64,000 bases of DNA, taken from positions 1 to 64,000 of the forward strand of contig JADFYM010000002.1 of assembly GCA_015233035.1 (NCBI GenBank), given 5' to 3'. This document shows, piece by piece, positions 28,037 through 64,000 of the stretch. A program made the translations under genes and the position numbers. Every line of letters begins with the position of its first letter. Within the stretch, counting starts at the first letter, position 1. The notes beneath the pieces were generated by a model. The model had not been told where the DNA came from and did not search any database. It saw only the letters and a program-made list of their open reading frames with translations. The DNA comes from Magnetococcales bacterium. GTDB lineage: Bacteria > Pseudomonadota > Magnetococcia > Magnetococcales > Magnetaquicoccaceae.

Positions 28037-28066
28037 TTTAATGCAGTTCCGCGTGTTTGACTATTA

Positions 28067-46455: not shown

Positions 46456-46730
46456 CTGGGAAGGCGGAGAACCGCCTCCCCAGACCCTCCATCTTTTTCT
46501 AAACCGCACCTGTTTCGGAATGCGTAGTTTCCGTCATCCCCGCGTAGGCGGGGATCCAGATCTCGCAGGTACCACCTGGATTCCCGCCTGCGCGGGAATG
46601 ACGTTTGAAAAACTACGCATCCCATGCTGGTTGCGGTTTAGAATCATTATCAAGGGGGTCCGGGGGGGATTATCCCCCCCGGTGGGGTCCAGGGGCAAAG
46701 CCCCTGGTGGGGCTGGGGGCAAAGCCCCCA
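46456..46730. repeat. Composite G-rich repeat, copy 9, split by a MITE
   Basis: First module GGCGGAGAACCGCC with CTTTTTCT (about 46456-46499), then the family A element (46500-46640), then the linker GAATCATTATCAA. The second module follows (46653-46730): GGGGGGGATTATCCCCCCC, CCAGGGGCAAAGCCCCTGG and GGGGGCAAAGCCCCC. Confidence 0.8.
46500..46640. mobile_element. MITE-like element, family A, short copy (141 bp)
   Basis: Ends TAAACCGCACC and GGTTGCGGTTTA in inverted orientation, with inner GGAATGCGTAGTTT and AAACTACGCATCCC. The interior has one CCCCGCGTAGGCGGGG palindrome and one opposing CCCGCCTGCGCGGG palindrome. Apart from one missing 41-bp unit and a few bases, it equals the copy at 9576. 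It is inserted in the AT-rich linker of a G-rich repeat. Confidence 0.75.
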
Positions 46731-47461
46731 AAAGACATCCACCTGTCCAATCTGCCCGGTTGACCCAACCAGTGCCGAAACGAGCAAGATGCCAGCACAC
46801 CTTCCCCCTGTCAACCAGGAGCGATGGACTGTGGTTGCCGGGCCACTATCCAGAAGCCACCCTCCCCGCTTCTGCCCCCTGCTTGCGCATTCGTCAAACC
46901 GTTGGCACTGGTCTGCCCGTGTTGGCCATGTGTTGGTGGCACTGCTGACTTGGGCGAGACACCGCCAATCACGCGGATATCATGGCAGGAACATTGCCCA
47001 TCCATACCCACAGGAACGGCTGCCCGGTCTGGGTTGTCATGCCATGCGTGACTCGTCCCCCCTTGAAACCGGCCTTCGCCACGGATATTTTTCCCCGCAA
47101 CCCATCGCCTGCGCCCGCCGGTTTACCCGTCATCCCCAACCGCAACATCCTTCTGCCATAATTCCAGCAAACCAAAGAGTAAACTTGACAGGAGGCCCTG
47201 GATCAGGGATGATCACCCCCTGAGGGAAAGAGGGCGGAACCAACCGAACTTGTTAAAGAAACCTACCCCTGTGTCACACAGTCGGCGTAGCGGATGAGAA
47301 ACCGGTCGTTGGCAACCCGTCACGCGCCGTGACACCGTTCTGGCATGTTGCTTGACGGCATGGATTGCCAACTGTCAGTAACGTGGCAATCCCTTGTTGT
47401 GCTGGACGGGTTGTCAATAATTATCCTTTGACTTTCAATCTGTTAGGAAACCAGGGCTGAC
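46731..47461. other. Long non-coding stretch upstream of the D,D-carboxypeptidase gene
   Basis: About 730 bases without a convincing gene. A 144-codon frame (46789-47223) has repetitive low-complexity content, no ribosome-binding site and no family resemblance. A short inverted pair (CCCTGGATCAGGG, CCCCCTGAGGG) lies near 47190-47226. No tRNA, tmRNA, 4.5S, 6S or RNase P RNA signature was recognised. Confidence 0.5.
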
Positions 47462-48759: not shown

Positions 48760-49125
48760 TATGTTTGGGGTGGCGGCACGCTGCCTCCCCAGCCCCCTCC
48801 CTCCTTTCTTGGGGTTGTCCTGTTCATTATTGCGGGTCCAGGGGGATCATCCCCCTGGTGGGGTCCCTACCCTATGCACACATCTTTATGCTGACAAAAA
48901 ATCCGAAGCATATTGTGTGGTTATAGGGGTCCAGGGGGATTATCCCCCTGGTGGGGTCCAGGGGCAAAGCCCCTGGTGGGGTCCGGGGCAAAGCCCCGTG
49001 AGGAACACAATATCAATACGTTGGGGGCTTCAGCCCCCAAACCCCCACCGGGGAGCGTGCCAGTCCCCGGCCCCCTGCAAAAGTTGTGTGCATAGGGTAG
49101 GGTGGGGTCCAGGGGCAAAGACCCC
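48760..49125. repeat. Cluster of G-rich palindromic repeats, copy 10
   Basis: Several units fill the gap between the carboxypeptidase and the GGDEF gene. GGGGTGGCGGCACGCTGCC is followed by a C/T tract near 48767-48810. GGGGGATCATCCCCC lies near 48840. A fuller copy (48925-48999) has CCAGGGGGATTATCCCCCTGG, CCAGGGGCAAAGCCCCTGG and GGGGCAAAGCCCC. GGGGGCTTCAGCCCCC lies near 49022. GTGCATAGGGTA also appears inverted (TACCCTATGCAC at 48868-48879). Confidence 0.8.
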
Positions 49126-49188: not shown

Positions 49189-50733
49189 ATGTCCATCTCG
49201 GTATTGTTTTTGGAGGATGACCAAGACATACTGGATCTATTGCTACCAGAATATCGGTCTCTCGACTACACGGTTTATCAAGCCCTCTCTGGTCATGAAG
49301 CCCTGGCGATTCTCCAGGCACACCCCATCGACATTCTCGTGACCGTTCTGCACACACCGGACATGGATGGACTGACCTGGATCCAACAGGCCATCGACCA
49401 GAAAAACGATTTGCAAATCATTCTGATGTGTACCCTGGAGGATCGCTTGTTGGCCGTGCAGGCGATGGCCCATCACGCTGTCATCGCCGTGCAAAAACCG
49501 GTGCATCGGGATGAACTCCGCATCCACATGGAACGGTGCCGTGAGATCAAGAAAACCCAGAAAACGCTGCGCCAGAAAGAGGCGTTGCTGACCATTGAGG
49601 CAATGGACCTCAAGCAGGCGGAAAAAATAGCTGAGCGGGCATTGACCATCCGCATCGCCATCAGTGCGCTGCTGGAAACCAGCCTGGAACCGCTCTCGCT
49701 CGAAAAACATGTCGCAGTAATCCTGGAGATCATTCTGGCGGTGCCCTGGCTCTCCGGTTTGCGCATGGGGGCACTGTTCCTGATGGATGAAATAACGGGC
49801 ACCCTCCAGATGGTCGGTCAGAAAAATTTACCCGAACCGCTGCTGACGCTGTGTGCCGAGGTACCACTGGGAAAATGTCTGTGTGGCCAGGCGGGACAGT
49901 CTCATGAACTGATTTTTACCGATCAGGTGGATGCACGGCATGAAATTGGTTTCGCTGCCATGACACCACATGGCCATTATTGTGTACCGATTGTCAACAA
50001 GGAACGTCTGCTCGGTGTATTGTGTCTGCACATGCCCGCTGGCCATCAGCACAAGCAAGACGAAGACGCCTTGCTGAGCACGATCAGCAACACCCTGGCA
50101 CTCATTCTCGAACACCGGCGCACCGAGTCTGATCTCCGCAAGGCGGAAGAACGCCTGCGCTTCATGGCCTACCATGATCCGCTGACCGGCTTGCGCAATC
50201 GCCAATTTTTTGATACCGCGTTCGGCAAGATATTCACCATTCTGCAGAATGTCGGTCGCCGGCAACACGAACGCCCGTTCCAGGGAGCCTTTTTGGCCAT
50301 GCTGGACATCGACCATTTCAAGAAGGTCAACGACACCTACGGCCATCTGATGGGCGATGAGGTGTTGGTCCTGTTTGCCCGCATCATGACCGAGTGTTTC
50401 CGGGACAAGGATGCGACCTTTCGCTTTGGCGGTGAGGAGTTTGTGGTCCTGTTGAACGACATCTCCCCGGAAACGGCGGAGGTGGTCTTGAACCGTTTTC
50501 GCAAGGCCGTCGAGTCCTATGCGTTTCCCCAGGTCGGGCGGGTCACGGTCAGCATCGGTGCCGTGCAGATTGAGGCCGGGGAACTGGCGGGCACCCTCAT
50601 CGAGAAGGCCGACCTGGCCCTGTACCACTCCAAGAGCAATGGCCGCAACCAGGTCAACTTATACCATATGCTGGTGGCAGCCGGTCATCTGGAGGCGGTC
50701 AGCCATGGAACGGAAGAGATTGATCTATGGTGA
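49189..50733 (+). CDS. REC-GAF-GGDEF diguanylate cyclase
   Basis: A 514-residue protein that probably makes cyclic di-GMP. The N-terminal receiver domain (1-120) has Val53 where the phosphoacceptor Asp should be (DILVTVLHTPDMDG), although the switch Lys is kept (AVQKPV). A GAF domain follows at about 170-320, with CGQAGQ and YCVPIVNKERLLGVLCL. The GGDEF domain (345-510) has the intact active site GGEEF (414-418). Its inhibitory site RDKD (405-408) is exactly five residues upstream. The GAF domain is thus the more likely sensor. It converges on the next gene, with a 9-bp overlap. Confidence 0.9.
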   Translation: MSISVLFLEDDQDILDLLLPEYRSLDYTVYQALSGHEALAILQAHPIDILVTVLHTPDMDGLTWIQQAIDQKNDLQIILMCTLEDRLLAVQAMAHHAVIAVQKPVHRDELRIHMERCREIKKTQKTLRQKEALLTIEAMDLKQAEKIAERALTIRIAISALLETSLEPLSLEKHVAVILEIILAVPWLSGLRMGALFLMDEITGTLQMVGQKNLPEPLLTLCAEVPLGKCLCGQAGQSHELIFTDQVDARHEIGFAAMTPHGHYCVPIVNKERLLGVLCLHMPAGHQHKQDEDALLSTISNTLALILEHRRTESDLRKAEERLRFMAYHDPLTGLRNRQFFDTAFGKIFTILQNVGRRQHERPFQGAFLAMLDIDHFKKVNDTYGHLMGDEVLVLFARIMTECFRDKDATFRFGGEEFVVLLNDISPETAEVVLNRFRKAVESYAFPQVGRVTVSIGAVQIEAGELAGTLIEKADLALYHSKSNGRNQVNLYHMLVAAGHLEAVSHGTEEIDLW

Positions 50734-53172
50734 TGACATCCTGAGCAGGCGCAAGCCCAGATAGAGAAACCGATGGCTCGGATCATCGACAAAACGATTG
50801 GCCGAACGCGCACCGGCCGGGACATTGTACCAACTGCCCCCTCGTATCACCCGACCGGAACCGGCAGACGGTCCCTGGGGATTTGCCTGGGGGGAACGGC
50901 CATAATAGTGTTCGTCATACCAGTCCGCCACCCACTCCCAGACATTGCCGCTCATATCGTACAAGCCCAACCCATTGGGCCGCTTCTGCCCCACAGGGTG
51001 TGTCAAGCCGCCACTGTTGCTGGCATACCACGCCACCCGGTCAATGTCGTCCCCCCCCGCATACCGTTCCTTTCTCCCGCCACTCCGACAGGCATATTCC
51101 CATTCAGCCTCCGTCGGCAACCGATATTTGCCCTCGCCCCGGTCGTTCAGCTTTTTGATGAATTGCTGCCCATCCTCCCAGGAGACCTGCTCGACCGGAT
51201 AATCGTCCCCCTTTTTGAAGTAGGATGGATTGCTCCCCATAATCTTTTGCCACTCGCCTTGCCGGACGGGAAATTTGCCCAACCAGAACCCATCCAGTTG
51301 AACTTCATGCACGGGTTTTTCGTCACGCCGTCCATCGCCAAACAGATCGCCCATCTGGAACGTGCCTTCCGGGACCCAAACAAACACCATACCCGTCAGC
51401 GGACAACACCACTCGCCCCGGAGCGGCACCTCCTCGCTCCAGTCATTCTCGACCGGCACGGTTTGATGCGGGATCGGCAATTCCCAGAAATGTGCCTCCA
51501 TGAAAAAGGCCCTGTGCCGAATATATTTCAAGGTTGGCAATTCTGAAAACATTTTTTCCAAATGGACCTGTTGGAACAAATGGAGCACATTCTGCTCCTC
51601 GCTCTCTACCACCCGGCATTTTTCCAGATACCATGCATCCAGTTCTCTCACCCGTTTTTCCAGTGCTTCCTCCACCCCTTTGTGTTTGGCTTGCGCCTCA
51701 GACAGGGCATTGGATAACAGATTGATCTCTCTTTCCAGCTTGTTTTTCTCATCGTCAAAGAGCATATCATCCGTCTTTTTTTGGGCCGAGAACAGCCAAG
51801 CCCAGAATCCCATCTGCTCTCCCTGGTGCGGGATCTCCTTGTCGCGCACCCGCTGGGCCAATTCTGTCTGGATATGGCCCTGTGTTTTGGCCAGATTTTG
51901 CCGATCCTGTTCCATCAGGTTGGAGATGTCCTGTTTTTCCTGAGCGATGCGCATGGCCAGGGTCTGTTTCCCCTCGGCGGCCCAGGAAAACCATTGATCA
52001 CATTTTTTGATCTGCACCAGAAGGGTATGCAAATCCTGTATATCAGCCAATCTCTGGCCCATATCGGCATATCCCTCTTCCCGGCCCTGAATGGCAGCGG
52101 CTTCCTGCTCCAATTGCAGCAAAATCTCCTTCAACACCGGATGCCACACCACCGCCTCGGTCTGCCGCAAAACCTGCCTGCATTCATCCAACGCCGCCGC
52201 CAGGGTGCTGGCACGTTGTTGCGCCAGAGAGGCCAACCAGGAAAACACCCGTTCCTGCACCGGAGCCAAGACCGGCTCCACGGCGGCCCGGGCAAAAAAA
52301 CGGCCATCCAGGTGAATCGCCTGCGCCAGCCCATGCCACGCCTCCTCCCACAGATCGACCAGGGCGGCATAACAGGCCGAGAGGAACAACTGCTCAACGG
52401 CTTGACTCTTTTCATAAGCACGACGGGCAAACGCATAAGCCTGTAGAGGATCGGCCTGCGCATAGGCAACCCGCGACATGGCCCACAGGGTACGGGCCTG
52501 CGCCCCCTTGTCCAGCCCTTCCGGCAGCGTCAACGCCTTGTTGAAAAACAACAGGGCACCCGCCTCATCCTCCTTGCGTATGGCGATGTAACCCAAATTG
52601 GTCAACACCTGATAATCGGTGCTGTCCCGCTTCAGGGCACGCCGAAAGCGTTGTTCCGCCTCCTGGTATTCACCATTGACATAATGGCGCACACCTTGCC
52701 GGAGCAATCGTTGCACCGCATTGGTCTGATGTTGGCAGGAAATGCCCAGAACGGTTTCCGGGGTGCCCCCGCCCCCCCCTTGTTGTGCCACCCACCATTT
52801 GATTTCCGCCAGTTCAAAGCACAACGCCCTTTCCTGGCCGAAGAGAAATTCGGTCATCTCGTTGGGCGTCGAGGCCATGCCCTGGATCGTCTCACTGGCA
52901 ACGGTATCGATGGCATTGGCCAGGATTGCCGCTTGCTGCGCCACTTCTGCCGCAACCTGTTTGGCTCCGGCCACGCCGCTTGCGGCCATGGCCCGACTCG
53001 CCGCCTGTTGTGCAGCAATCTGCTGGCGCACCAGAGCAATCATCCTGTTCTGCTGTTCGGCACCATCAACCGGCAGCGCGTCGATGCTCTGCGTCTCCAT
53101 CTGCTCCCCGTCACCGGACACCCTCTGTTCGGCCAAACCATATGTATACCGCTCCCACAACGATGGCATGTC
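50725..53172 (-). CDS. TPR / coiled-coil protein with a C-terminal FGE-sulfatase (SUMF1) domain
   Basis: An 815-residue protein. An Ala/Gln-rich helical N-terminus is followed by TPR-like repeats (about 165-320, e.g. VNGEYQEAEQRFRRALKRD). Then comes coiled coil (about 400-540) and a formylglycine-generating-enzyme fold (585-815) with MVFVWVPEGTFQMGD, YRLPTEAEWEYACR, NVWEWVADW and VIRGGSWYN. The paired catalytic Cys of true FGE is missing, so a binding rather than catalytic role is likely. ATG 53172 has GGGGAA upstream; GTG 53196 does not. It follows the TAXI gene by 13 bases. Confidence 0.85.
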   Translation of the reverse strand, partial: DMPSLWERYTYGLAEQRVSGDGEQMETQSIDALPVDGAEQQNRMIALVRQQIAAQQAASRAMAASGVAGAKQVAAEVAQQAAILANAIDTVASETIQGMASTPNEMTEFLFGQERALCFELAEIKWWVAQQGGGGGTPETVLGISCQHQTNAVQRLLRQGVRHYVNGEYQEAEQRFRRALKRDSTDYQVLTNLGYIAIRKEDEAGALLFFNKALTLPEGLDKGAQARTLWAMSRVAYAQADPLQAYAFARRAYEKSQAVEQLFLSACYAALVDLWEEAWHGLAQAIHLDGRFFARAAVEPVLAPVQERVFSWLASLAQQRASTLAAALDECRQVLRQTEAVVWHPVLKEILLQLEQEAAAIQGREEGYADMGQRLADIQDLHTLLVQIKKCDQWFSWAAEGKQTLAMRIAQEKQDISNLMEQDRQNLAKTQGHIQTELAQRVRDKEIPHQGEQMGFWAWLFSAQKKTDDMLFDDEKNKLEREINLLSNALSEAQAKHKGVEEALEKRVRELDAWYLEKCRVVESEEQNVLHLFQQVHLEKMFSELPTLKYIRHRAFFMEAHFWELPIPHQTVPVENDWSEEVPLRGEWCCPLTGMVFVWVPEGTFQMGDLFGDGRRDEKPVHEVQLDGFWLGKFPVRQGEWQKIMGSNPSYFKKGDDYPVEQVSWEDGQQFIKKLNDRGEGKYRLPTEAEWEYACRSGGRKERYAGGDDIDRVAWYASNSGGLTHPVGQKRPNGLGLYDMSGNVWEWVADWYDEHYYGRSPQANPQGPSAGSGRVIRGGSWYNVPAGARSANRFVDDPSHRFLYLGLRLLRMSSP

Positions 53173-53185
53173 AAGAATTCCCCTT

Positions 53186-54124
53186 TCAATACCCACTGAG
53201 ACAATGCGACCTTAAAAAGTTTTTGCCACTGTTGTCCACATACTCGAAATCCACCTTCTGCCATTGCGCATGACCATTGGTTCGCAGCCAGAGAAGATTT
53301 TTTTTCAGAACATCCGAAAATTTAATTAATCTTTGGCAAACAGGCATATCTTGCACATAATCATAGGTGGCCAACAGGACCTTGACAGAGACCGTCTGGA
53401 CCGCTTCTTTTTGCCATACATAGGTATTGACTGGGATTTCAGCGGGCATATAAACCGGATCAGCATGGGTAAGCACCACGGGGAGCAGGTGGTACCCTTT
53501 ATTTTCCAACGATTGCAGCAGCACCACCGGATAACCGGAGACCATGGCCACGGCATCGACCTCCCCGGCATACAGTTTGGCCAAAGCCTCCGCACCGGAG
53601 ACAGGTATCGACTCAACCTGAATATTTTCTTGTTGAAAAATATTGCCCATGGTCAGGAAAGCACCCGATTTTTGTGCCCCCGTCGCCACTTTATGCCCCC
53701 GCAACTCTGTCAGGGAACGAATGCCCTGCCGTGCCACGATTTGCACCATTTCATCGTAGAGAGGATAATATGTCCTGACCTTCACCAAAAATTTACGCAT
53801 ATTATTGCCCGGACGATCACTCTGTCTGAGGCGACCCGCAATCCAGGAGGGGATATCCGCCTGCACAAAGGCCATATTGACCTCATCATCGTTGACAATA
53901 GACATCAAATTGTCCAAAGAACCCGCCGAAGGCTTGACGATAATATCAAACCCGTACATCTGGCCCAGCCTTTTTAAATCATCACTGAATTGGTGATACA
54001 CCCCATTGGCATCGCCAGCGACCAGAACCAGCTGACCGTTGGGAAACGGCACCTCCGCCCTGGCAGCAAACGGTTCCGCTGTCATCGCGAGCAACAACAA
54101 GAAGAATCCGCACCACACGCGCAT
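53186..54124 (-). CDS. TAXI-family solute-binding protein
   Basis: A 312-residue exported protein. A signal peptide with core FFLLLLAMTAEPFAARA is followed by a periplasmic binding fold of the TAXI (NMT1_3) group. Landmarks are LVAGDANGVYHQFSDDL, GSLDNLMSIVNDDEVNMAFVQADI and AGEVDAVAMVSGYP. TAXI proteins normally feed TRAP transporters (often glutamate-like or C4 substrates). Here no TRAP permease is adjacent, and the partner gene encodes a TPR/FGE-fold protein, so a sensing role is possible. Confidence 0.87.
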   Translation of the reverse strand: MRVWCGFFLLLLAMTAEPFAARAEVPFPNGQLVLVAGDANGVYHQFSDDLKRLGQMYGFDIIVKPSAGSLDNLMSIVNDDEVNMAFVQADIPSWIAGRLRQSDRPGNNMRKFLVKVRTYYPLYDEMVQIVARQGIRSLTELRGHKVATGAQKSGAFLTMGNIFQQENIQVESIPVSGAEALAKLYAGEVDAVAMVSGYPVVLLQSLENKGYHLLPVVLTHADPVYMPAEIPVNTYVWQKEAVQTVSVKVLLATYDYVQDMPVCQRLIKFSDVLKKNLLWLRTNGHAQWQKVDFEYVDNSGKNFLRSHCLSGY

Positions 54125-54171
54125 GAGCCTGTATCCGCAGAGAATGGAGTTGTTCTTGATAAAAGCTTAAC

Positions 54172-54366
54172 TTATGTAGATTTTGTCTCTTTGTCCGGCG
54201 TAAAATGCACGGAGGCAATCTCGTCCATAATGTCTTTGGGCATCACCAGTGTGGCATCGGTTCCCTCTTCGTCCTCTTCCTCTTCTGCATCATCATCCAT
54301 ACGCTCAGCTTGATTGAGATCACCGTCTGTGCTTTTCCTGTTGCTTGTCATCCATTCTTCGCCCAT
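54172..54366 (-). CDS. Small acidic protein with a DATLV motif
   Basis: A 64-residue protein. A strongly acidic middle (MDDDAEEEEDEEG) runs directly into TDATLVMPKDIMDEI. ATG 54366 is preceded by AAGGGGAT, a good ribosome-binding site. The family was not recognised. The DAT-Leu/Val segment matches motifs at the N-terminus of the FHA protein at 56131 and the tandem repeats at 63872. It may therefore be a phosphothreonine target of the divergently encoded kinase (inference). Confidence 0.6.
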   Translation of the reverse strand: MGEEWMTSNRKSTDGDLNQAERMDDDAEEEEDEEGTDATLVMPKDIMDEIASVHFTPDKETKST

Positions 54367-54502
54367 AATTATCCCCTTGTGTCCATTTTTTTCTACCGTA
54401 GGTTGGCTGTGTTTCCAACACAACGGCCATTTAATCGCTGATATTCTTTCGAGAAGATTCTATTTCTCGCAAGGTTGTCCGCACCAACAACCAATCGATC
54501 CC

Positions 54503-55924
54503 ATGATAAACACACCCCTTTCCCTTGTCACCGGTTTTTTGCAGACACTGGACGGTTTTTGTGATCTGGATGCACAAGGACTCCGTGCCGTCGCGGCAGA
54601 GTGCCCGGTCAAATCCTTTGCCCCGGAGGAATACCTGATGCGCAAGGGGGAGGCGGGGGATGTCATGTATATTCTCATGGATGGCCAGGTACGGGTGCCG
54701 GTTACCGACACAACGGGCGAGATTTTATCGACCCTGCTCCTGGGACCACGGGAGGTGGTAGGCGAAATGGCCCTGCTGACCGACGAACCACGCCGCGCCG
54801 ATGTGATTGCCTATACCGCCGTGTCGGCCCTGGCCATGGAAAAAAAGCAGATGGACCACCTGCTGCATCGGTACCCCTCCTGGGCCAATTTTTTGACCAG
54901 CATCCTGGTCAAACGCATCCAGTCGGTCAACGGCTTCCAAAAAATCGGCAAATACCAGTTGCTGAATGAACTGGGGACCGGCAGTACCGCCCGGGTCTAT
55001 GATGGCATCCATCAATACCTGGGACGCCCCGTTGCCATCAAAATGCTCAACCATGCCCTGGTCTATAACGACCTGTTCCGCGAACGCTTTGAGACAGAGG
55101 CCCGCATTATTGCCGGGTTGTCCCATCCCAATATTATCCAGGTTTATGATACAGAGCAGATGCATGGCACATTCTTTATCATCATGGAAAAACTGCCTGG
55201 CAACGACCTGAAAAAAATGCTCAAGCGGGTCAAAAAATTTCCCCCGGAAGAGGTGATTCTGATTCTCCATCAGGTGGCCCGCGCCTTGGAGTATGCCCAT
55301 CAGCAGGGCATTTTGCACCGGGATGTCAAACTCGCCAATTGCATCATGACCGAGAGCGGTCAGGTAAAACTGATGGATTTCGGCTTGTCCCAGCCGCGTG
55401 GCGTCTCGGAGACAACCCATATCGAGGGATCGCCCGAATATCTGGCCCCGGAAATCATCCGTGGCGCACCGCCTGATGAGCGGTCCGATATTTATGCGTT
55501 GGGCATCATGGCGTTTGCCCTGTTGACCGGCCGCTCCCCGTTTTATGCCAAGAGTGTACGAGAGGTATTGGTCAACCACCTCAACAAACCCGTGCCCGAC
55601 ATCGCGGCTCTGGTCCCTGGCATCCCCAAAAAATTGTTGACCTTTATCCAGGGCACCTTGACCAAGGATCCCGGCCAGCGTCTGGCCCATTGGCCGACCA
55701 TTTTTTCTCTGCTGGAAAGACGCGGCACCCGAAAAAGTGCCGACCAGACCATCCCCACCTCTCCCGCGTATCACTCCCTTGTCCTGACCTGTCCGACGGC
55801 ATCCTCCCCCCTCCTGCTGGATGCCCTGCAGCAATTGGCAACCCGCATCAACGGCCTGACCTGGTCCGATGCCAGCCAACCGGGTGCAGAACCCGACCGG
55901 GACAGCAGCATAAAAACAGTGTGA
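54503..55924 (+). CDS. Serine/threonine protein kinase with N-terminal cNMP-binding domain
   Basis: A 473-residue soluble protein. Residues about 10-130 form a CAP_ED domain with an intact phosphate-binding cassette VVGEMALLTDEPRRADV. Residues 150-410 form a Hanks-type kinase: glycine loop ELGTGSTARVYDG, Lys180 in VAIKML, HRDVKLAN (His272-Asp274), DFG from Asp292 and the APE motif YLAPE. This layout parallels eukaryotic cGMP-dependent kinases, suggesting control by cyclic nucleotides (inference). ATG 54503 is chosen because upstream codons overlap the divergent small gene. FHA-domain genes follow. Confidence 0.9.
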   Translation: MINTPLSLVTGFLQTLDGFCDLDAQGLRAVAAECPVKSFAPEEYLMRKGEAGDVMYILMDGQVRVPVTDTTGEILSTLLLGPREVVGEMALLTDEPRRADVIAYTAVSALAMEKKQMDHLLHRYPSWANFLTSILVKRIQSVNGFQKIGKYQLLNELGTGSTARVYDGIHQYLGRPVAIKMLNHALVYNDLFRERFETEARIIAGLSHPNIIQVYDTEQMHGTFFIIMEKLPGNDLKKMLKRVKKFPPEEVILILHQVARALEYAHQQGILHRDVKLANCIMTESGQVKLMDFGLSQPRGVSETTHIEGSPEYLAPEIIRGAPPDERSDIYALGIMAFALLTGRSPFYAKSVREVLVNHLNKPVPDIAALVPGIPKKLLTFIQGTLTKDPGQRLAHWPTIFSLLERRGTRKSADQTIPTSPAYHSLVLTCPTASSPLLLDALQQLATRINGLTWSDASQPGAEPDRDSSIKTV

Positions 55925-56038
55925 TCACAAACAAACCGTCATGCCATGTGACCGTTTTCCCCGGACACCCCCTTTCTCCTGTCTTTTGGCACCAACCGGA
56001 TTTTGTCGGGCAGGACCGCCTTCACCATCGCCTATCGG

Positions 56039-56067
56039 TTGACAACGACCATCAACTCTGCTGTCAT
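56039..56067 (+). promoter_or_regulatory. Possible sigma-70 promoter before the FHA gene
   Basis: A perfect -35 TTGACA and a -10 TGTCAT are separated by 17 bases. An upstream TGn gives an extended -10. The FHA ATG lies 64 bases downstream of the -10 box. Confidence 0.4.
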
Positions 56068-56130
56068 CTGCTCCATCCAGGAGGATGCGGAAAGGGTAGA
56101 GAACCAAACAGCCTTTGACAGGATTATTTT

Positions 56131-57492
56131 ATGACAGCGGATGAAGATGCCACGGTGATGATGGGCCACAACGTGGTGGAAGAGAAGGATGACGATGCCA
56201 CGCTCATGGTGGGCCAGGCGGTGGGTGGCCGGATCAATGGCGGTTTACCACCCCCCCCCAAAGCCAGGCTGGTTTGTCTGGATGATACGCTGCTGGATCC
56301 GAAACAGAAGGGACTGGTGATTGCCCTGGACGGGGGCGTCCACATTCTGGGGCGCAACCCGAACAACACGACGGATCCCATTCTCTATCAGGGCGTCTCC
56401 AGCAGGCACGCCCGCCTGTTCACTGCGCAGGATAAATGGGCCATTGAGGATCTGCAATCCACCAACGGCATCTGGATCAATGGCGTGCGCGCGGAACATG
56501 CCTTTCTGGTACCAGGCGACTTGGTCAAAATCGGGGCGATTCCCTTTCAATTCATACTGGCAGACCCGGCGCATCCTGCCCCGGTGGTGACGGCCAGCGG
56601 GGATGAGACCATGGTCCTTGGCGGGGAAGGTGGGCACGCCGATGCGGCCAGGCGGATTGTGGAACTGCCTGCCATGGCCCCAGCGGAAAAGGCCATGGCC
56701 GAAGAGAAAAAGGGGGCGGCGGTCAGGACCAATGCGGCCAACCCACTCTCCAGGAACGCATTGACGGGGACGCAGACGTCCCCACCCCAAAAATCCAGCA
56801 AAAAAATCCTGCTGTTCGCGCTGCTGTCGGTACTGCTGGTCGGGGGCGGCCTGGGGGTATACCTGCTCCAGAAGGGACCGGGCGGCAGCGACAAGGTGCA
56901 GTTGCATCAGAAAGAGATCAAACAGTTTTCCGACGCGCACGAAACCGCCAAGGGCACCCTCTCCCAGGAAGCGTTGCAGGCACAAGTCGAACAGATCGGG
57001 ATCCTGCTCCAACCCCTGTCTGCCGATGTGGAACACTATCCAGACAATCAGGAATTGAAGGAATGGTTGGTCCGGCTGCGCTTTCTGCTCCTGGAGCGGC
57101 AGTTTTTGCTCCTCGCACAGGCGGGAAAGTTGCAACAAGTGGAACCCATGCTCCGTGATCTCGTGGCATTTGTGTCAGCCGATTGGACCAGAACCTCGCT
57201 CAAGCAGACCTGGCTGAAAGATATGCGGGGCGTGCTGGACCTGGTGCAAGGGGTCGCCACAGCGAAACAGTTTCGTCAGCAATATCCCCAACCGTCCAAA
57301 ACGGCCCCGGATCGTCCCAGTCGGGACCAATTGGCGGCGATCAACAAGGTCAGCGAAAATATTGTGCGCCAGAAAAAAGATTCCGGGATCAATATTCTGT
57401 TGAGTGTGCAGTTTCCCCTGTTCGGGCACGTGGTTGCCCAGGTGGATGGGGAGGATTTGCCCACCATCCGTTTGTGGAACGAGTCTCTATAG
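56131..57492 (+). CDS. FHA-domain membrane protein with N-terminal DAT motifs
   Basis: A 453-residue protein. Two acidic Thr motifs open it: EDATVMMG (residues 5-12) and DDATLMVG. An FHA domain follows (about 45-135) with HILGRNPNN, VSSRHARLF and LQSTNGIWING, which bind phosphothreonine peptides. After a DETMVLGG motif and a linker there is one transmembrane helix (about 225-245). The C-terminal region of about 205 residues, probably periplasmic, is helical and unrecognised. Such proteins sense kinase output at the membrane. The kinase gene lies just upstream. Confidence 0.87.
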   Translation: MTADEDATVMMGHNVVEEKDDDATLMVGQAVGGRINGGLPPPPKARLVCLDDTLLDPKQKGLVIALDGGVHILGRNPNNTTDPILYQGVSSRHARLFTAQDKWAIEDLQSTNGIWINGVRAEHAFLVPGDLVKIGAIPFQFILADPAHPAPVVTASGDETMVLGGEGGHADAARRIVELPAMAPAEKAMAEEKKGAAVRTNAANPLSRNALTGTQTSPPQKSSKKILLFALLSVLLVGGGLGVYLLQKGPGGSDKVQLHQKEIKQFSDAHETAKGTLSQEALQAQVEQIGILLQPLSADVEHYPDNQELKEWLVRLRFLLLERQFLLLAQAGKLQQVEPMLRDLVAFVSADWTRTSLKQTWLKDMRGVLDLVQGVATAKQFRQQYPQPSKTAPDRPSRDQLAAINKVSENIVRQKKDSGINILLSVQFPLFGHVVAQVDGEDLPTIRLWNESL

Positions 57493-57569
57493 CAGCGGCG
57501 GTCCAGTCACCATCCTGGACACCAAAAGAGTAGATATTTCTTGAGTTTCTTTAAAATAAATCTTCCTCA

Positions 57570-57588
57570 GACACCCCGACAGGGTGTC
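57570..57588 (+). other. Small stem-loop upstream of the secretin gene
   Basis: GACACCC and GGGTGTC pair around CGACA. An A-run follows, so on the plus strand it is not a standard terminator. It lies in the 200-bp gap before the secretin gene. Confidence 0.4.
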
Positions 57589-57692
57589 AAAAAACTTTCC
57601 CCTGTCAAAAATATGCTGTATAACTCGAGCGTGGTGGTGGCAGAGGCTATGGGTTGAGTTAAGTTGCAATAATAACTTCGTGCTGGCAGGCG

Positions 57693-59816
57693 ATGGGGGT
57701 TTGCGTGGTCGTGCATCGATTCAAGAAAGGGTTCCAGATCGGCCTGTTGGCGATGATTCTGCTGGTGGTGGGGCTGAACGTCTGGGGTGGTTTTCCCCTG
57801 GCCTGGGCGGAAGAGTTGAAATGGAAGGAGGAAATTTTTGATGTCACCTTTGTCGATGCGGATGTCCGGGATGTGCTGACGGATGTCCTGAAGCGCAACG
57901 GCAAGACGGCGGTGTTTTTGCCGGGGGTGACGGGGACGGTCACCTTTGACTTTCGCAGCAATCCGATGCCCATTGAGGCCGCCTTCAACAAAATTCTCGC
58001 CGAAAACAATCTGACCCACATGTTTGATGCGGCCAACAAAGCAGTCAAGGTCATGCCCGCCTCCGCTTCGGCCATATCGGACGATCTTTTTACCCCCAAA
58101 TATTCCGATTTGAAAAGCATTCTGGATGCCTTCGCCCGGTTTGGTCTGGGCAGTGGGGTGACCATCACGGCGGATCATATTACCAACGTCTTGTTTTTCC
58201 ATGGCACGCAGGCCGATGTTGCCACGCTGAAACGGGTGGCAACCGAAATCGACGAGTCGATGCAAAACATGCAGGCGCGTCGGTTGAAGGATACGGAGCA
58301 GCAGTCGAAAGAACTGGAGCAGCAACGGTTGAAGCATTCTGTTTCGGTGGAGGAGCAGCGTGCACAATTGGAAAAAGACAAGATTGAGGATGAGCGGTCG
58401 GTGACGGTCGAGGTCATCCCGTTGCGTTATACCAGCGTGGCCCCTTCGACGACCTCGTTTCTGGGTGAAAAGATCACCCTGCCGGGTATTCTGGACTCGT
58501 TGCGGGCCTTTGTGGGACCGATCACGGTGTTGGATGCCAGCAAGGACGAGAGCGAGGATAAAGGGGTCAAGGAGGCCAAACATCCTGCCCCGACGGATAC
58601 CCGCAACAAACCGCTGGTCTCCGTGGATGTCCGCACCAATTCAATCGTCGTGCAAGGATCACCGACGCAGATCAAGCGGGTCGCCGATGTGGTCAAAAAG
58701 TTGGACAAGGAAGTGCCTCTGATCGAGATTGAGGTGATGGTGGTGGCGGGTTCGGTGGATACCTCCAAATCGTTTGGCGTCCAGTTGGGCGTGACCAGCC
58801 CGTTTGGGGCCAATGCCAATTTGTTGATACCATCGGACAAGGGTACCTTGACCAATCTGGGCTTCACACCCGCCAATCCTGCCACCAACCCAACCATTCT
58901 CCAGGATCAGTTCAATGTTGCGCAAGCGACCGATGCTCTCAACGCGGCCAAGGCGCGTACTGATGCGGGTGCGGGTGCTGCGGTCTCTGCCGCTCAGACA
59001 GCCATGAATGTCGCCAACGCAAACCTTGCCCATGCTACCGCCAATGCGTCCGTCTTGCCTACCAAGCAAGGTTTGGGTCAACTCATGTCTACCCAGGGCG
59101 GCTTGGGTGCCCAATTCCTGTATCGGGGCACACGCGAAGTGCTGGAATCGGCGATTACCGCCATGGCCAGCGATGGCAAGGCGCACAAGGTGGCCTCGCC
59201 ACGGGTGGTGACACTCAACAACCTGGCGGCCCATGTCAGCAACACGACCAAAATAACCAACCTGGCGGTCAATTCTGTCACCATAGGCAACCAGTCCTCG
59301 TCCAGTCAGGGCCAGTCTTCCTCCGCAGAGGCGGGCACTACTCTGGTGATCATCCCTTCGGTGATCAAGACGGAGGAGGAGGATGGTTCCCGTCTGGTGC
59401 GGATGAACATTGATGCCAAAAACACCGCGCTGTCACCCATCGGCGGTGGTCTCGTCCAGACCGATGGTCAGGGTTTGCAGACCAACATTATTATTCCTGA
59501 CGGGGCCACCTTTGTAATGGGCGGTTTATTCAACACCGTGCGCAACGAAAGCCATACCGGCATTCCGCTGTTGATGGATATACCGGTGGTGGGTAATCTG
59601 TTCGGCACCAAAAGCTCCGACGATCAAAAAACGGAGACGGTCTTTTTTATCACGCCAAAGGTCTTTTCCTACAAAGATATTGTCACCACCCAGGGTGTGC
59701 GGGCCAAGGATTATATAGAGGGCCAACGCTCTTCCTTGATACAGGAACAGAAAGGGTTGGAGAAAGAGAGCCAGCTTTTGTCTATGCCGCAGATGAAAGT
59801 TTCCGAGGACGAGTAG
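57693..59816 (+). CDS. Type II/III secretion or type IV pilus secretin
   Basis: A 707-residue outer-membrane channel protein. A signal sequence (to about residue 40, ending AWA) is followed by an STN/N0-like domain (FVDADVRDVLTDVLKRNG). A charged coiled-coil spacer occupies about 187-235. An N1/N3-like domain (VDVRTNSIVVQGSPTQIKRVADVV) precedes the C-terminal secretin domain, with SPRVVTLNNLAA and the signature GIPLLMDIPVVGNLFG (about 622-638). An Ala-rich insert (about 406-453) interrupts the secretin region. No ATPase or platform gene is nearby, so the exact machine (T4P, T2SS, MSHA-like) is not determined. Confidence 0.88.
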   Translation: MGVCVVVHRFKKGFQIGLLAMILLVVGLNVWGGFPLAWAEELKWKEEIFDVTFVDADVRDVLTDVLKRNGKTAVFLPGVTGTVTFDFRSNPMPIEAAFNKILAENNLTHMFDAANKAVKVMPASASAISDDLFTPKYSDLKSILDAFARFGLGSGVTITADHITNVLFFHGTQADVATLKRVATEIDESMQNMQARRLKDTEQQSKELEQQRLKHSVSVEEQRAQLEKDKIEDERSVTVEVIPLRYTSVAPSTTSFLGEKITLPGILDSLRAFVGPITVLDASKDESEDKGVKEAKHPAPTDTRNKPLVSVDVRTNSIVVQGSPTQIKRVADVVKKLDKEVPLIEIEVMVVAGSVDTSKSFGVQLGVTSPFGANANLLIPSDKGTLTNLGFTPANPATNPTILQDQFNVAQATDALNAAKARTDAGAGAAVSAAQTAMNVANANLAHATANASVLPTKQGLGQLMSTQGGLGAQFLYRGTREVLESAITAMASDGKAHKVASPRVVTLNNLAAHVSNTTKITNLAVNSVTIGNQSSSSQGQSSSAEAGTTLVIIPSVIKTEEEDGSRLVRMNIDAKNTALSPIGGGLVQTDGQGLQTNIIIPDGATFVMGGLFNTVRNESHTGIPLLMDIPVVGNLFGTKSSDDQKTETVFFITPKVFSYKDIVTTQGVRAKDYIEGQRSSLIQEQKGLEKESQLLSMPQMKVSEDE

Positions 59817-59832
59817 ACGAGAGGATCTCGAC

Positions 59833-60267
59833 ATGGAAAGAGTTTTAATTCCCCTGAACTGGGCGTGCGGCACCCTGCTGCTGATCGTGGCACTGGCTTA
59901 TCCTATGCTGGACGGCAAGTTTTTTACCGGCGGCAAAAAACTGGTGGCGCAGGAACGGGTGGAGCGCATTGCGCAGTGGGAAACGAATTATTATCAGACA
60001 CATAATCAGGATCAATATCTGCTCTTTTCCGCCGAGGAGATGCCGGAAGCCATTCGCGATGAGTTGGGTCTGCGGACAAAAGATGATTTTGTGTATGATG
60101 TTTTTCTGGATAATGGGCAACTGGTCATCCGTGCGCAGGCCTCACCAGACAGTATACGTTCCGGTTCGCTGCCACCCTTGATCTATACCGTGCGGAAAGG
60201 TGCCAACGATGCGCCGAGTCAGGGAAGCTGGGCCCCCCTCTCTGGCCAAAGTCCGGGGCTGTTTTAG
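59833..60267 (+). CDS. Pilin-like protein without a classical prepilin cleavage site
   Basis: A 144-residue protein. A hydrophobic N-terminal helix (LNWACGTLLLIVALAYPML) leads into an amphipathic helix (RVERIAQWETNYYQTHNQDQYLLFS). A small beta-rich part follows (DDFVYDVFLDNGQLVIRAQA, IYTVRKG). The layout and the Glu-Tyr-Tyr spacing resemble minor type IV pilins, but the G-FxxxE cleavage site is absent. The family was not recognised. It starts 16 bases after the secretin stop and precedes a lipoprotein gene. Confidence 0.6.
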   Translation: MERVLIPLNWACGTLLLIVALAYPMLDGKFFTGGKKLVAQERVERIAQWETNYYQTHNQDQYLLFSAEEMPEAIRDELGLRTKDDFVYDVFLDNGQLVIRAQASPDSIRSGSLPPLIYTVRKGANDAPSQGSWAPLSGQSPGLF

Positions 60268-60304
60268 GTTTATATCTTGTATTGGGGATGGGAGTAACCA
60301 ATCG

Positions 60305-60958
60305 ATGTCATTGCACTTTCCCAACGCTTTTTCCTGGACGGTCCGGCTTGCGCTGCTGGGTGTACTGGGCGGTTGCGCCGTGTCTGGTCCTGCCGTCCAG
60401 GATCCGGTGGTCACCACCCAGGAACTGGCCGCTCCGGCGCGCGATTTCGCCCAATTTCCACCCTGGCAGTTGGGCAGCACCTGGGAATACAGCGATGGCT
60501 ACACCTTGCAAGTCACGGAAACAGATGGCAGGACCGCAACGTTGAAACGCACAGATCGGTCGAGTGACTGGTTCAAGCGCGAGGGCTTTTTCAAGATGGA
60601 TTCCCAGGAAGAGGGTGTGCGGCGGCAGGTGGTCTATCAATCCCCCAATCCTGCGACCCTGTTTCCCCTGGCGATGGGCAAGACCGTCTCTTTTGCCCGT
60701 GAATATTTGATCGACAAAAAGCTCTACGTCCACCAAACCTCCTGGAGTGTCGTGGGTCGGGAGACCATTGAAGTGCCCGCTGGCAAGTTTGACTGCTGGG
60801 TGCTGGTCTGGAACACCCGCAGCCAAAAAAGTAACTGGAGTGGCTACGAGAAATGGTGGTATAGTCCCGAGGTGGGCAACTATGTGCGCCTGGAATACCG
60901 CTATGGCAAGGCACCGGACTCGTCGCGCGTGTTGATGCGGTACAAGAAAGGCGAGTGA
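60305..60958 (+). CDS. Predicted lipoprotein of unknown function
   Basis: A 217-residue protein with a lipoprotein signal (LALLGVLGGCAVSG, lipobox Cys at about residue 20). The mature beta-rich domain has repeated Trp/Tyr strands (WQLGSTWEYSDGYTLQV, NWSGYEKWWYSPEVGNYVRLEYRYG). It resembles generic 'DUF-type' beta-sandwich lipoproteins, and no family can be named. Its place in the secretin cluster suggests a pilotin or accessory role (inference only). The frame is open upstream to 60200, but ATG 60305 gives the lipobox. Confidence 0.75.
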   Translation: MSLHFPNAFSWTVRLALLGVLGGCAVSGPAVQDPVVTTQELAAPARDFAQFPPWQLGSTWEYSDGYTLQVTETDGRTATLKRTDRSSDWFKREGFFKMDSQEEGVRRQVVYQSPNPATLFPLAMGKTVSFAREYLIDKKLYVHQTSWSVVGRETIEVPAGKFDCWVLVWNTRSQKSNWSGYEKWWYSPEVGNYVRLEYRYGKAPDSSRVLMRYKKGE

Positions 60959-61159
60959 TTTTTGGGCGTTAATGAGGCGACCGGTTTGTGTTTCGTCTCT
61001 TCGTTTCTTTGAGCTTATTTCGAGTACTGTTCGTCGTGGATGTTTGCCAAAATGTTTCATTTATTCTAAAAGTGGCTGACCAGGGGCAGTCGGGGTGCCG
61101 CATCCAGTGGGGCTGGTCGTGGGGCTTGATCAAACAAACCATAATAAAAGGGGAAAATA

Positions 61160-61798
61160 ATGACAATGATCACAACACGGGGAAATCTCCCTGTTCGGCA
61201 AGCACGTCGGGGTGAAGGGGGCTTTACGCTGATCGAATTGATGGTGGTGGTGGCCATCATTGCCATCCTGGCGTCGATTGGGATACCGAAGATGACCGCC
61301 TTTATCAAAACATCGGAAACGGCTGAGGCTGTGGAACAAATGGGGAGAATCTCCCAGGCCTTGCGCGGCTACATAGACAGTCATCCGAGCATGACCACCG
61401 CTGATGTTGTCACTGCCCTGGCCAGCAACAACGCGCTGACGGCCCAGGGGTCCACCAATATTGGTGTTGGCAGCCTGTCCACCCTGATTCCGCATCTCAC
61501 ACTCGCCAGTACGGCAAAGTTTAACTATGTGGCCAATGTAGCGGCGGTAAGTGCGGACAGCACAGTGGCTCCCGGCGTGAAAAAAGATGACCTGGCAATC
61601 TGTATCGAAGCACGCAACGCCACGACGGATACGGCGACCACCAATAAGGCCGGTTTGATCTGGTCCTTGATCAAACCAGTAGCCAATGCTTCCTTATGGG
61701 AAGAAAACGTTTACCGCTCCTCATATGTTAACAACAATTTGACATACCAATCCGGCGGTGAATGCTCGGCGGCTGGCGCGGCACAAGATCCCTCGTAA
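61160..61798 (+). CDS. Type IV prepilin / type II pseudopilin-like protein
   Basis: A 212-residue prepilin. A basic leader ends EGG and is followed by the mature start FTLIELMVVVAIIAILASIGIP, with Glu at position 5. PilD-type peptidase would cut after the last Gly. The globular C-terminal part contains two Cys (CIEARN, GGECS) that could form a disulfide. AAGGGG precedes the ATG. It shares the cluster with the secretin, but no pilus ATPase, PilC or PilD gene is visible. Confidence 0.9.
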   Translation: MTMITTRGNLPVRQARRGEGGFTLIELMVVVAIIAILASIGIPKMTAFIKTSETAEAVEQMGRISQALRGYIDSHPSMTTADVVTALASNNALTAQGSTNIGVGSLSTLIPHLTLASTAKFNYVANVAAVSADSTVAPGVKKDDLAICIEARNATTDTATTNKAGLIWSLIKPVANASLWEENVYRSSYVNNNLTYQSGGECSAAGAAQDPS

Positions 61799-61845
61799 TC
61801 CCAGGTAAAAACATCTTCGATGTGTGGTCTTTACAGGTATGACGC

Positions 61846-63408
61846 ATGAGCAATGAAGAACGGTACACCGAGTGGAAGGAGGTTGGTCAGGGGGCCTTTG
61901 GCTCGGTGTGCCGGGCCTATGACACCCTCCTGAAACGCAACGTCGCCATCAAACTGCTCAAGCCCGAACATGGCAACAACCGACAGTTGGTCGAGGCTCT
62001 GCAACAGGAGGTGATCATCTCCCGGGATTTGCGTCATGAGTGTATCTGTCCGATCCATGATGTCTATCGGGGGGAGCGTGGCGTCGGTACGGTCATGGAC
62101 TTTATCGATGGCATGGAACTGAGCAAGTGGCAAAAGATCAACCGGGGGCGGTTGCTGGATACCGCCCCGGAACGTCTGGAACTGTTTCGCAAACTGTGCG
62201 ATGCCTTGGCCTTTGCCCACACCCATATTGTCCATCGGGATCTGAAACCGGACAATATTTTTCTGCTCAAAGGCGATCCAACCCGCCCGATGATCATGGA
62301 CTTTGGCACGGCGGTCGTGGGAGCCGCCGCCGATGACGCCAACATTGCGGGGACGCCCAAATATATGTCGCCCGAGCAGTGGAACACCCCCGATGCGGTG
62401 GATCAGCGCGCCGATCTCTTCGCCTTGGGCATTATTGCCTACGAACTCTTTACCGGTCAGGTGCCGCCGACTTCGTTGCGCTATGTGACCAAAACCAAAG
62501 TACCACCCAAGGTGGATTTGGCACTCATCGACAAACCGAGCCAGTATTGCGCCGCTCTGCCCGCCGATCTGGATCGGATTATCATGCAGTTGATGGCCTA
62601 CAACCCGGTGGATCGGCCCCAATCCGCCCGTGATGTGGCGATCGCCTTGGGCTATGTCAAACTCAAGCAGGGCGATCTGCTCGCGGGCGTCGGGCAGGCC
62701 TCCCAGGCCACATTGGCCGCCAACACGGTCCTGATACCGGGGGGCAGCTTTTATCTGGGCTCTACCCAGCAACAGCCCGGCAGCATGGCCCACGAGCGAC
62801 CGCGCAAAAAGATACGCCTCTCGCCGTTCCGCATGGCGATCTGTCCGGTCACGGTCGAGGAATATCGGCAGTTTGTGCAATCCACCGGCTTCACGGCCCC
62901 CGCCTCGCTGGACGATCCGTTGCTGGGTCGGGATGAACAGCCGGTGGTCGGGGTCAGTCATGCGGATGCCCTGGCCTATGCCCGTTGGGCGGGCGGAAAT
63001 TTACCCAGCGAGGCCCAATGGGAATTTGCCGCCAAGGGAGGAGCCGCCTTTCCGCTCTACCCCTGGGGAGACACCCCCACCACCCCCACTACGGCCAATA
63101 TTAACGGCGTCTCCAGTACTCCGTCGCCGGTGGGCAGTTGTCCGGCGGGGGTCAACCCGTTCGGTCTGTTTGACCTGTGCGGTAACGTCTGGGAATGGTG
63201 CCTGGATGTCTGGGATCCCAACTATTATGGTCTGTTGCAGACTGATGCGCTGGATCCGGTCTGTCAGTCCAACGGCGCGGAGCGGGTGTTGCGCGGTGGC
63301 GCATTTGACAGCTTTCCCAGTCAAGGCCGCTGTTCCGCCCGATTTCATGCCTCCCCGGAGGTGCGCAATCGTGCCTTTGGCTTTCGTCTGGTCTTTCCGG
63401 CTGAATAA
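61846..63408 (+). CDS. Serine/threonine kinase fused to an FGE-sulfatase (SUMF1) domain
   Basis: A 520-residue protein of the 'Pkn1' type. The kinase domain (1-265) has the glycine loop VGQGAFGSVCRAYD, Lys36 in VAIKLLK, HRDLKPDN (from His130), MDFGTA and YMSPEQ. The FGE domain (about 292-520) has VLIPGGSFYLGS, LPSEAQWEFAAKGG, CGNVWEWCLDVW and VLRGGAFDSF. In the final segment only one Cys (GRCSARF) replaces the paired catalytic cysteines of FGE, so binding is more likely than Cys oxidation. There is no transmembrane segment. It precedes an FHA-domain gene. Confidence 0.9.
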   Translation: MSNEERYTEWKEVGQGAFGSVCRAYDTLLKRNVAIKLLKPEHGNNRQLVEALQQEVIISRDLRHECICPIHDVYRGERGVGTVMDFIDGMELSKWQKINRGRLLDTAPERLELFRKLCDALAFAHTHIVHRDLKPDNIFLLKGDPTRPMIMDFGTAVVGAAADDANIAGTPKYMSPEQWNTPDAVDQRADLFALGIIAYELFTGQVPPTSLRYVTKTKVPPKVDLALIDKPSQYCAALPADLDRIIMQLMAYNPVDRPQSARDVAIALGYVKLKQGDLLAGVGQASQATLAANTVLIPGGSFYLGSTQQQPGSMAHERPRKKIRLSPFRMAICPVTVEEYRQFVQSTGFTAPASLDDPLLGRDEQPVVGVSHADALAYARWAGGNLPSEAQWEFAAKGGAAFPLYPWGDTPTTPTTANINGVSSTPSPVGSCPAGVNPFGLFDLCGNVWEWCLDVWDPNYYGLLQTDALDPVCQSNGAERVLRGGAFDSFPSQGRCSARFHASPEVRNRAFGFRLVFPAE

Positions 63409-63475
63409 CCGTTCCATGGCCGAAAGGATGATCAAGGCGGTCTGAAACAATAACTTTGCCCCAGGTAGACGTGTG

Positions 63476-64000
63476 ATGACTGTTGCCGATTGTCTCTATT
63501 TCCAAATTCATGACTCGTCCGGGCAGATCACAGAACTGGCCAAGGAGGGTTCCAGCATCGTCATTGGGCGGCGGTCCAAGGTGGGCACCCGTCTGGCGGA
63601 TCTGTTTGTGGACGATCAATATGTCTCCCGTCGGCACAGTCGGGTATTTCGCAACCCAGAGGCCCCCGACCAATGGCTGCTGGAAGATATCGGCAGCAAC
63701 AACGGAACCCGGCTGAGTGGAGTTCCGGTCACGGCGGCAGTACCGATTGAAGAGGGGGCGTGGATTCAAATCGGCACCACCCGCCTCACCTTCAGCCGTC
63801 AGCCCAAATATGCGACACAAGAACCGGAAGCGGCAGCCACCGTTGTCGCGCCCGTTTTATCCATCGATGGCGATGCCACGGTGGTGCGCCCGCGCGATAC
63901 CGACGCCACAGTGGTGCGCCCCCGGGAGGAAGATGCCACGGTGATGCGTCCCCGCGATAGGGATGCCACGATAGTGCGTCCTCGGGAAGAGGATGCCACG
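63476..64000 (+). CDS. FHA-domain protein with tandem DAT repeats (3' end outside window)
   Basis: The frame opens at ATG 63476 and is still open at the right edge (175 codons seen). An FHA domain covers about residues 1-110: IVIGRRSKVGTRLADLFV, VSRRHSRVF and EDIGSNNGTRLSG keep the phosphothreonine-contact Arg, Ser, His and Asn. From residue 133 the chain consists of 10-residue repeats, DAT[VI][VM]RPR[DE]x, four complete and one partial. Each has one Thr in an acidic context, a plausible kinase site. The gene follows the kinase-FGE gene by 67 bases. Confidence 0.85.
   Translation, partial: MTVADCLYFQIHDSSGQITELAKEGSSIVIGRRSKVGTRLADLFVDDQYVSRRHSRVFRNPEAPDQWLLEDIGSNNGTRLSGVPVTAAVPIEEGAWIQIGTTRLTFSRQPKYATQEPEAAATVVAPVLSIDGDATVVRPRDTDATVVRPREEDATVMRPRDRDATIVRPREEDAT
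63872..64000 (+). repeat. 30-bp tandem coding repeat (DATVxRPRxx)
   Basis: Four full 30-bp units and 9 bases of a fifth, starting at 63872, 63902, 63932, 63962 and 63992. Each begins with GATGCCACG or a near match. Third-position differences between units (GAC/GAT, ACA/ACG, CGC/CGT) show that selection keeps the peptide and not merely the DNA. The array continues beyond the window. Confidence 0.9.

Follow-up and report, generated by a model that had tools for sequence, protein, structure and literature searches.

The window analysed here comprises positions 1-64000 (64,000 bases) of contig C222 (accession JADFYM010000002.1; 86,783 bases) in a Magnetococcales genome, G000 (4.5 Mb in 434 contigs). 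It contains the first genes of what, judging from sequence, is probably a self-contained envelope machine of the type IV pilus/type II secretion system (T2SS) class, whose assembly motor has its own phosphothreonine (pThr)-FHA switch. The window edge cuts the decisive gene, that of the motor, 528 bases after its start; the remainder lies further along C222, and coordinates beyond the window are those of the contig. We observed directly the domain architecture of the motor, a threonine-motif array in its linker that is conserved among orthologues, an exclusive linkage between kinase and motor genes, and, at loci that lack the kinase, an FHA domain that has decayed or disappeared.

An FHA-bearing motor with a threonine-motif array

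The elements of the putative switch are as follows.

61846-63408, plus strand: kinase-FGE, a soluble Ser/Thr kinase fused to an FGE-fold domain, 520 aa (Pkinase 2e-35, FGE 9e-54)
C222:63473-66130 (63473-64000 inside the window), plus strand: FHA-linker-PilB/GspE ATPase, the motor, 885 aa (FHA 1e-10, T2SSE 7e-125)
63554-63775, plus strand: FHA domain of the ATPase (Pfam; beta strands, residues 7-108 in the model)
C222:63872-64150 (63872-64000 inside the window), plus strand: phosphoacceptor-like repeat DAT[VI][VM]RPR.., unit of 10 aa (30 bp)

The structural model of the motor, which is reliable for domains only (mean predicted local distance difference test score, pLDDT, 59), consists of a beta-sandwich (residues 7-108), a disordered segment (114-313) and, starting near residue 318, a folded N-domain. 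The nearest solved structures of the ATPase are PilB and GspE, and its NCBIfam scores are 484 bits for PilB, 495 for GspE and 53 for the TadA-family model. The FHA domain keeps every canonical residue of the pThr site (G32 R33, S52 R53 H55, N77 G78 T79); R33 and S52 correspond to R30 and S46 of Agrobacterium Fha, where mutation of these residues abolishes pThr binding (PMC3953482). No paper on an FHA-PilB/GspE motor was found in the open-licence literature.

The linker contains nine copies of DAT[VIM][VML], eight of them spaced exactly 10 residues apart, against 0.04 expected from shuffles, a statistic inflated by tandem duplication; the rest of the motor protein contains none. Because the array arose by tandem duplication, comparison of the motif across species is the stronger argument. 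The motif is kept in divergent orthologues, with 4 strict copies in G042, 7 in G025, 4 in G037a and 6 in G026, although their linker spacers diverge widely (EDEATIVRVPDAAG, AEEATMLARPSHGG, DDDEATIMAPAAVV and REDDATMVRSRDDD, respectively). Between adjacent repeat units of the C222 motor, the motif codons show conservative or synonymous changes and no others, whereas the spacer ends are free to vary in their final residues, and the DNA pattern of two motifs at period 30 has matches only in the motor gene family among 48 genomes. The linker motif DATVV resembles DLPpTVVEI, a proven PpkA/Fha site in TssL of the type VI secretion system (T6SS) and its best parallel from experiment: phosphorylation of this site depends on PpkA, and Fha binds it through its FHA domain (PMC3953482).

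The catalytic K, HRD and DFG motifs of kinase-FGE are intact, with DFG followed by Thr. Its FGE domain has a single Cys in the motif that we take to be the position of the usual catalytic Cys pair (RGGAFDSFPSQGRC); since that pair is not there, the domain more likely senses or binds something than makes formylglycine. Of the eight kinases with HRD and DFG intact, six have Thr, Val or Ile at DFG+1 and two have Ala. As a beta-branched residue at this position predicts a preference for Thr (PMC3898841), kinase-FGE is predicted to be Thr-preferring.

Conservation and co-variation across the order

We compared 48 genomes of the order, most of them drafts, with several loci ended by contig edges; loci were found by ATPase searches, followed by tblastn of every protein of the cluster against the loci so obtained. 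This yielded 13 motor loci in 12 genomes (G000, G042, G025, G037 with two, G026, G022, G004, G035, G021, G047, G029 and G045). The common order is secretin, 144-aa protein, DUF3108 lipoprotein, prepilin, kinase-FGE, (FHA-)ATPase and GspF, and the remaining genes (ExeA-like, GspB-like, pilins, PilM-N and PilO) follow in one or two blocks. Conservation of gene order in related genomes, which the original prediction from the window had proposed as a check, thus extends over several families. In a maximum-likelihood tree, the 11 motors whose core is complete group in a single clade (Shimodaira-Hasegawa-like approximate likelihood ratio test support 99), separate from 31 other GspE/PilB proteins that include the paralogues of G000 itself.

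The kinase-FGE family (E <= 1e-60) has 10 copies in nine of the 48 genomes, and each of the 10 adjoins a motor of that clade; the open reading frames (ORFs) of the two genes overlap by 4 bp in G042. Kinase and pilus genes are thus regular neighbours, the reverse of what would have counted against the original prediction. Its central idea, phosphothreonine control of a secretin/pilin machine, is supported by linkage and conserved order insofar as a pThr/FHA system is wired to the machine. Its membership has to be narrowed: the two kinases, two FHA proteins and two FGE proteins of the window had all been included, whereas the conserved locus has only kinase-FGE and the FHA-ATPase. Outside the order, a profile of the motor N-terminus (E 1e-12) found no FHA-motor of this family in 351 other genomes of the phylum, only FHA-sized matches. 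A mobile or plasmid origin was rejected, as the N-terminal part had no full-length relative on plasmids and the motor had none in viral contigs.

Motif-rich linkers (five loci; G022 has a variant form, EEQSTVV) occur only where kinase and FHA domain are both present. In the kinase-less G047, the FHA domain has an N-to-H change at the pThr site and the motif is missing, and in G029 and G045, also kinase-less, no FHA domain is detectable. After GspF, the G029 locus encodes a protein with WD40 repeats and a guanylate/adenylate cyclase domain (L051:15146-18622), and a similar-sized ORF occupies the same place in G045 (L052:14672-18229; the two proteins have about 1160-1190 aa). The WD40-cyclase protein is a possible replacement regulatory input. 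G037 has two versions of the locus, on C9 and C180 (L043 and L046), with the kinase in both and the FHA motor and motifs in one only, offering a natural comparison of regulated and unregulated motors.

In or next to these pilus loci, the FGE domain also appears in other fusions: with a caspase (C14) domain after PilO in G042 (L041:4673-6529), and with a TIR domain between kinase and ATPase in G021 (L050:11546-12979). This suggests that the FGE domain serves as a sensor that can be exchanged, perhaps with coupling to a cell-suicide arm.

Proposed mechanism and rival explanations

Known direct inputs of PilB/GspE-type motors are mainly cyclic di-GMP (as in MshE), PilZ/FimX and similar partners. 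For the C222 machine, the evidence is evenly poised on the fuller proposal that the motor is gated in cis by Thr phosphorylation at multiple sites, with its own FHA domain as the reader and kinase-FGE as dedicated sensor, and that the regulatory input is swapped as a module across the order while the machine stays constant. The modules would be kinase-FGE with an FHA motor, a kinase with FGE-TIR, and a WD40-nucleotide cyclase with an FHA-less motor. In the core of this scheme, the switch that we hold to be probable, kinase-FGE would sense something via its FGE-fold domain and phosphorylate threonines of the [DE]AT[VILM][VILM] motifs in the motor linker. The motor FHA domain would bind at least one linker pThr, most likely between adjacent hexamer protomers, since 4-9 sites per single FHA domain point to intersubunit bridging. 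Binding may alter motor assembly or docking to GspF/PilM-N, gating pilus or pseudopilus extension, and a PP2C-type phosphatase, for which genes are present elsewhere in G000, could reset the switch.

Several findings weigh against this scheme, besides the inflated shuffle statistic. No phosphatase gene is found in the locus, and FHA residue H55 is replaced by Q in two motif-rich orthologues. G035, G037b and G021 retain the kinase but lack the FHA domain and nearly all motifs (in the G021 kinase, HLD/DFT replaces HRD/DFG), and G004 has kinase and FHA domain and no motif. These exceptions probably mean that the kinase also acts on another target, or else that the switch is decaying in those lineages.

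The same switch could have the opposite sign, with the FHA domain folding back on its own phosphorylated linker to turn the motor off, which we regard as conceivable but doubtful. An FHA domain near a Thr motif in the same chain resembles GarA and OdhI, which are autoinhibitory and have one or two such sites, a layout that favours inhibition, and the OdhI model matches the FHA part of the motor; the 4-9 sites here instead favour multivalent or intersubunit binding. Set against autoinhibition is also the T6SS analogue, in which PpkA/Fha phosphorylation activates (PMC10433429), a precedent by which we take activation to be somewhat likelier than inhibition.

The motor FHA domain might alternatively read pThr on another protein and so recruit the motor, the linker repeats being a flexible spacer only. 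FHA domains do usually bind partners in trans, as in Fha-pTssL, and candidates for such a partner are the autophosphorylated kinase, the 196-aa protein p196 encoded in the locus (with acidic D-D-T-T-R repeats; its N-terminal acidic Thr motifs are conserved in two genomes) and a membrane FHA protein encoded upstream of the secretin, which has DATVM/DATLM motifs and co-occurs with the locus. A plain spacer, however, would not retain a DAT-hydrophobic motif amid diverging flanks, motif-rich linkers are restricted to loci with kinase and FHA domain, and the gene of the membrane FHA protein normally lies elsewhere in the genome; we therefore consider recruitment in trans unlikely. It is highly improbable that kinase/FHA and pilus genes adjoin by chance or by loose clustering in a regulatory island. 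That would fit the outer genes of the window (TAXI, TPR-FGE, cNMP-kinase and membrane FHA), which are not conserved here, but the FHA domain is fused to the motor, and kinase-FGE stands beside the motor in all 10 cases, in nine genomes of several families.

Relation to known systems

The C222 machine belongs to the type IV filament superfamily (type IV pili, T2SS and the MSH pilus): it has an extension ATPase, a GspF/PilC platform, prepilins with the N-methylation motif, a secretin and an available prepilin peptidase. With type IVa pili, the MSHA pilus and the T2SS the C222 machine shares the secretin, extension ATPase, GspF/PilC, PilM-N, PilO, an ExeA-like ATPase and several prepilins, but it falls under the NCBIfam equivalog cut-offs of PilQ, MshL, GspD, GspE, PilB and GspF, and its ATPase forms a clade of its own. 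Against a canonical T2SS stand the scores (with cut-offs) for GspD (125 vs 351 bits), GspE (495 vs 630) and GspF (265 vs 424), and no prepilin matches T2SSG in Pfam. The secretin, for which PilQ is the best NCBIfam model (166 vs 284 bits), and the motor (PilB, 484 vs 676) likewise set it apart from canonical type IVa pili, and MshL (73 vs 250 bits) from the MSHA pilus, an ExeA/MshM-like ATPase being there nonetheless. G000 has three secretins besides this one and at least two other, distinct motors of the GspE/PilB type (C199 and C55), which makes the C222 machine an additional, separate one.

TagR, a T6SS activator, has an FGE fold. The PpkA/Fha pathway of the T6SS thus shares with the C222 locus a Ser/Thr kinase, an FHA reader and an FGE-fold partner that act on an envelope machine (PMC3953482; PMC10433429); in the C222 locus, by contrast, kinase and FGE domain are one soluble protein, and the FHA reader and the candidate phosphosites sit in one protein, the motor. 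No match to DotU/TssL was found in the G000 genome, and the kinase/FHA pair is therefore unlikely to serve a T6SS; the system works like the PpkA/Fha pathway but is no member of it.

Class III CpaF motors of Tad pili have an N-terminal FHA domain, a disordered region and a secretion-superfamily motor (PMC12019362). The C222 motor has the same FHA-disordered N-terminus, but is of the PilB/GspE type and belongs to a PilM-N/PilO/secretin machine. It also has a linked kinase and Thr-motif repeats, neither of which is mentioned in the section of PMC12019362 consulted. FHA-bearing CpaF motors are thus a precedent, and the C222 motor varies a known theme. In Sulfolobus, ArnA/ArnB control of the archaellum, a machine of the type IV pilus family, involves an FHA protein and phosphorylation (PMC4858521); ArnA/ArnB repress expression, whereas the C222 FHA domain is part of the motor. 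If our reading is true, it would extend to the type IV filament superfamily a phosphothreonine logic known mainly from the T6SS, and class III CpaF and other FHA-bearing motors could find their purpose explained; the C222 locus offers sharply defined candidate sites, kinase and reader.

Extent and gene content of the locus

The other genes of the conserved locus are the following.

57693-59816, plus strand: secretin, outer-membrane pore, 707 aa (Pfam Secretin 1e-31, Secretin_N 4e-17, weak N0 domain)
59833-60267, plus strand: 144-aa protein with N-terminal helix and small sheet, pilin-like shape (no family match)
60200-60958, plus strand: DUF3108-like lipoprotein candidate, a system marker (Pfam DUF3108_like 1e-8)
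61160-61798, plus strand: prepilin pilin1, 212 aa (N_methyl 1.6e-8); in conserved loci it directly precedes the kinase
C222:66130-67176, plus strand: GspF/PilC platform (1e-51)
C222:67236-67826, plus strand: p196, conserved 196-aa protein
C222:67827-70043, plus strand: ExeA-like ATPase with peptidoglycan-binding domain
C222:70049-70888, plus strand: GspB-like/SNase protein, GspB-like N-terminus MSYVLDALEKSEQER and SNase-like end
C222, about 72661-74920, plus strand: three prepilin-type proteins
C222:74890-75474, plus strand: PilX-like protein
C222:75565-77631, plus strand: PilM-N fusion, 688 aa (weak PilM match; second half consistent with PilN)
C222:77635-78489, plus strand: PilO-like protein (weak GspC match)

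The kinase-FHA-secretin-pilin cluster of the original prediction consists of real genes by Pfam, but its borders were misplaced. In other genomes, tblastn places the start of the conserved locus at the secretin orthologues. ATPase and platform protein, expected to come from elsewhere, are encoded directly downstream on C222, where the machine runs to about 78489; only the prepilin peptidase, for which the same was expected, is indeed off the locus, as one Peptidase_A24 gene on G000:C420. Pfam agrees with the earlier assignments of the secretin, the prepilin, the lipoprotein candidate, the TAXI protein, the two FGE-fold proteins and the two Ser/Thr kinases (54314-55924, with a cNMP-binding domain, and 61846-63408, with an FGE domain). 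It likewise finds FHA in both proteins so named (56131-57492 and 63473 on), the second of which is the N-terminus of the 885-aa FHA-T2SSE ATPase and not a separate protein. Because C222 makes up 1.9% of the genome and carries three of its nine Pkinase genes and two of its six FHA genes, the clustering is beyond chance.

The 144-aa protein had been called pilin-like, and its model (pLDDT 78), a long N-terminal helix with a small sheet, does have that shape. It matches no family and shows no prepilin cleavage motif, and a pilin fold was rejected for want of a PDB fold match. The protein is kept beside the secretin in five other loci; the DUF3108-like lipoprotein candidate, whose real start is likely downstream of the ORF start, is conserved in 10 other loci. 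The protein at C222:70049-70888 is presumably of the GspB family, from its N-terminus MSYVLDALEKSEQER; the same combination of GspB-like start and SNase-like end occurs at L043:2638-3684. As the companion of an ExeA-like ATPase, such a protein is unusual.

Between an Rpn-like gene and the downstream pilins, a segment of about 370 bp is present twice in direct orientation (C222:71633-72406; 81% identity); the Rpn-like gene is not in the G042 locus and is therefore probably an insertion on C222. A third Ser/Thr kinase gene on C222 is found about 6 kb beyond the pilus genes (84122-85867; L006:12122-13867).

Neighbouring genes and other features

Four genes upstream of the secretin lie outside the conserved locus.

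50725-53196, minus strand: TPR-FGE protein (Pfam FGE); not at this place elsewhere
53186-54124, minus strand: TAXI/NMT1 protein (Pfam); not at this place elsewhere
54314-55924, plus strand: cyclic-nucleotide (cNMP)-binding Ser/Thr kinase (cNMP_binding 4e-18, Pkinase 4e-55)
56131-57492, plus strand: membrane FHA protein (FHA 1.5e-11, one transmembrane segment at 223-247)

The cNMP-kinase was not found upstream of the secretin in G042 and other loci. The DATVM/DATLM motifs of the membrane FHA protein are N-terminal, and its family keeps [DE]xT[VIML]M. Orthologues occur in seven other genomes, always on a contig other than that of the pilus locus. The flanks that were read (L213-L217) have ABC-transporter genes of the exporter kind, identified by Pfam in two flanks and apparent by eye in three more. 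The protein is present in six of nine kinase carriers and two of 39 other genomes (Fisher p = 0.0002), and this co-occurrence makes a link to the locus in trans possible. The family is possibly a second, GarA-like pThr/FHA pair with a tie to type I secretion.

Two further explanations for parts of the region were rejected. A diversity-generating retroelement acting on the FGE domain of kinase-FGE has no template/variable repeat near 63.2-63.4 kb. As to anti-phage defence, PADLOC matched the kinases only through generic kinase-domain similarity and gave no match for the motor or the membrane FHA protein.

A dispersed repeat of about 60-125 bp is present on C222 in at least 10 copies, in both orientations and roughly 85-100% identical, at 29-152, 1266-1391, 6814-6881, 14038-14113, 18614-18714, 23259-23361, 28062-28127, 46637-46731, 48923-48998 and C222:78684-78743.

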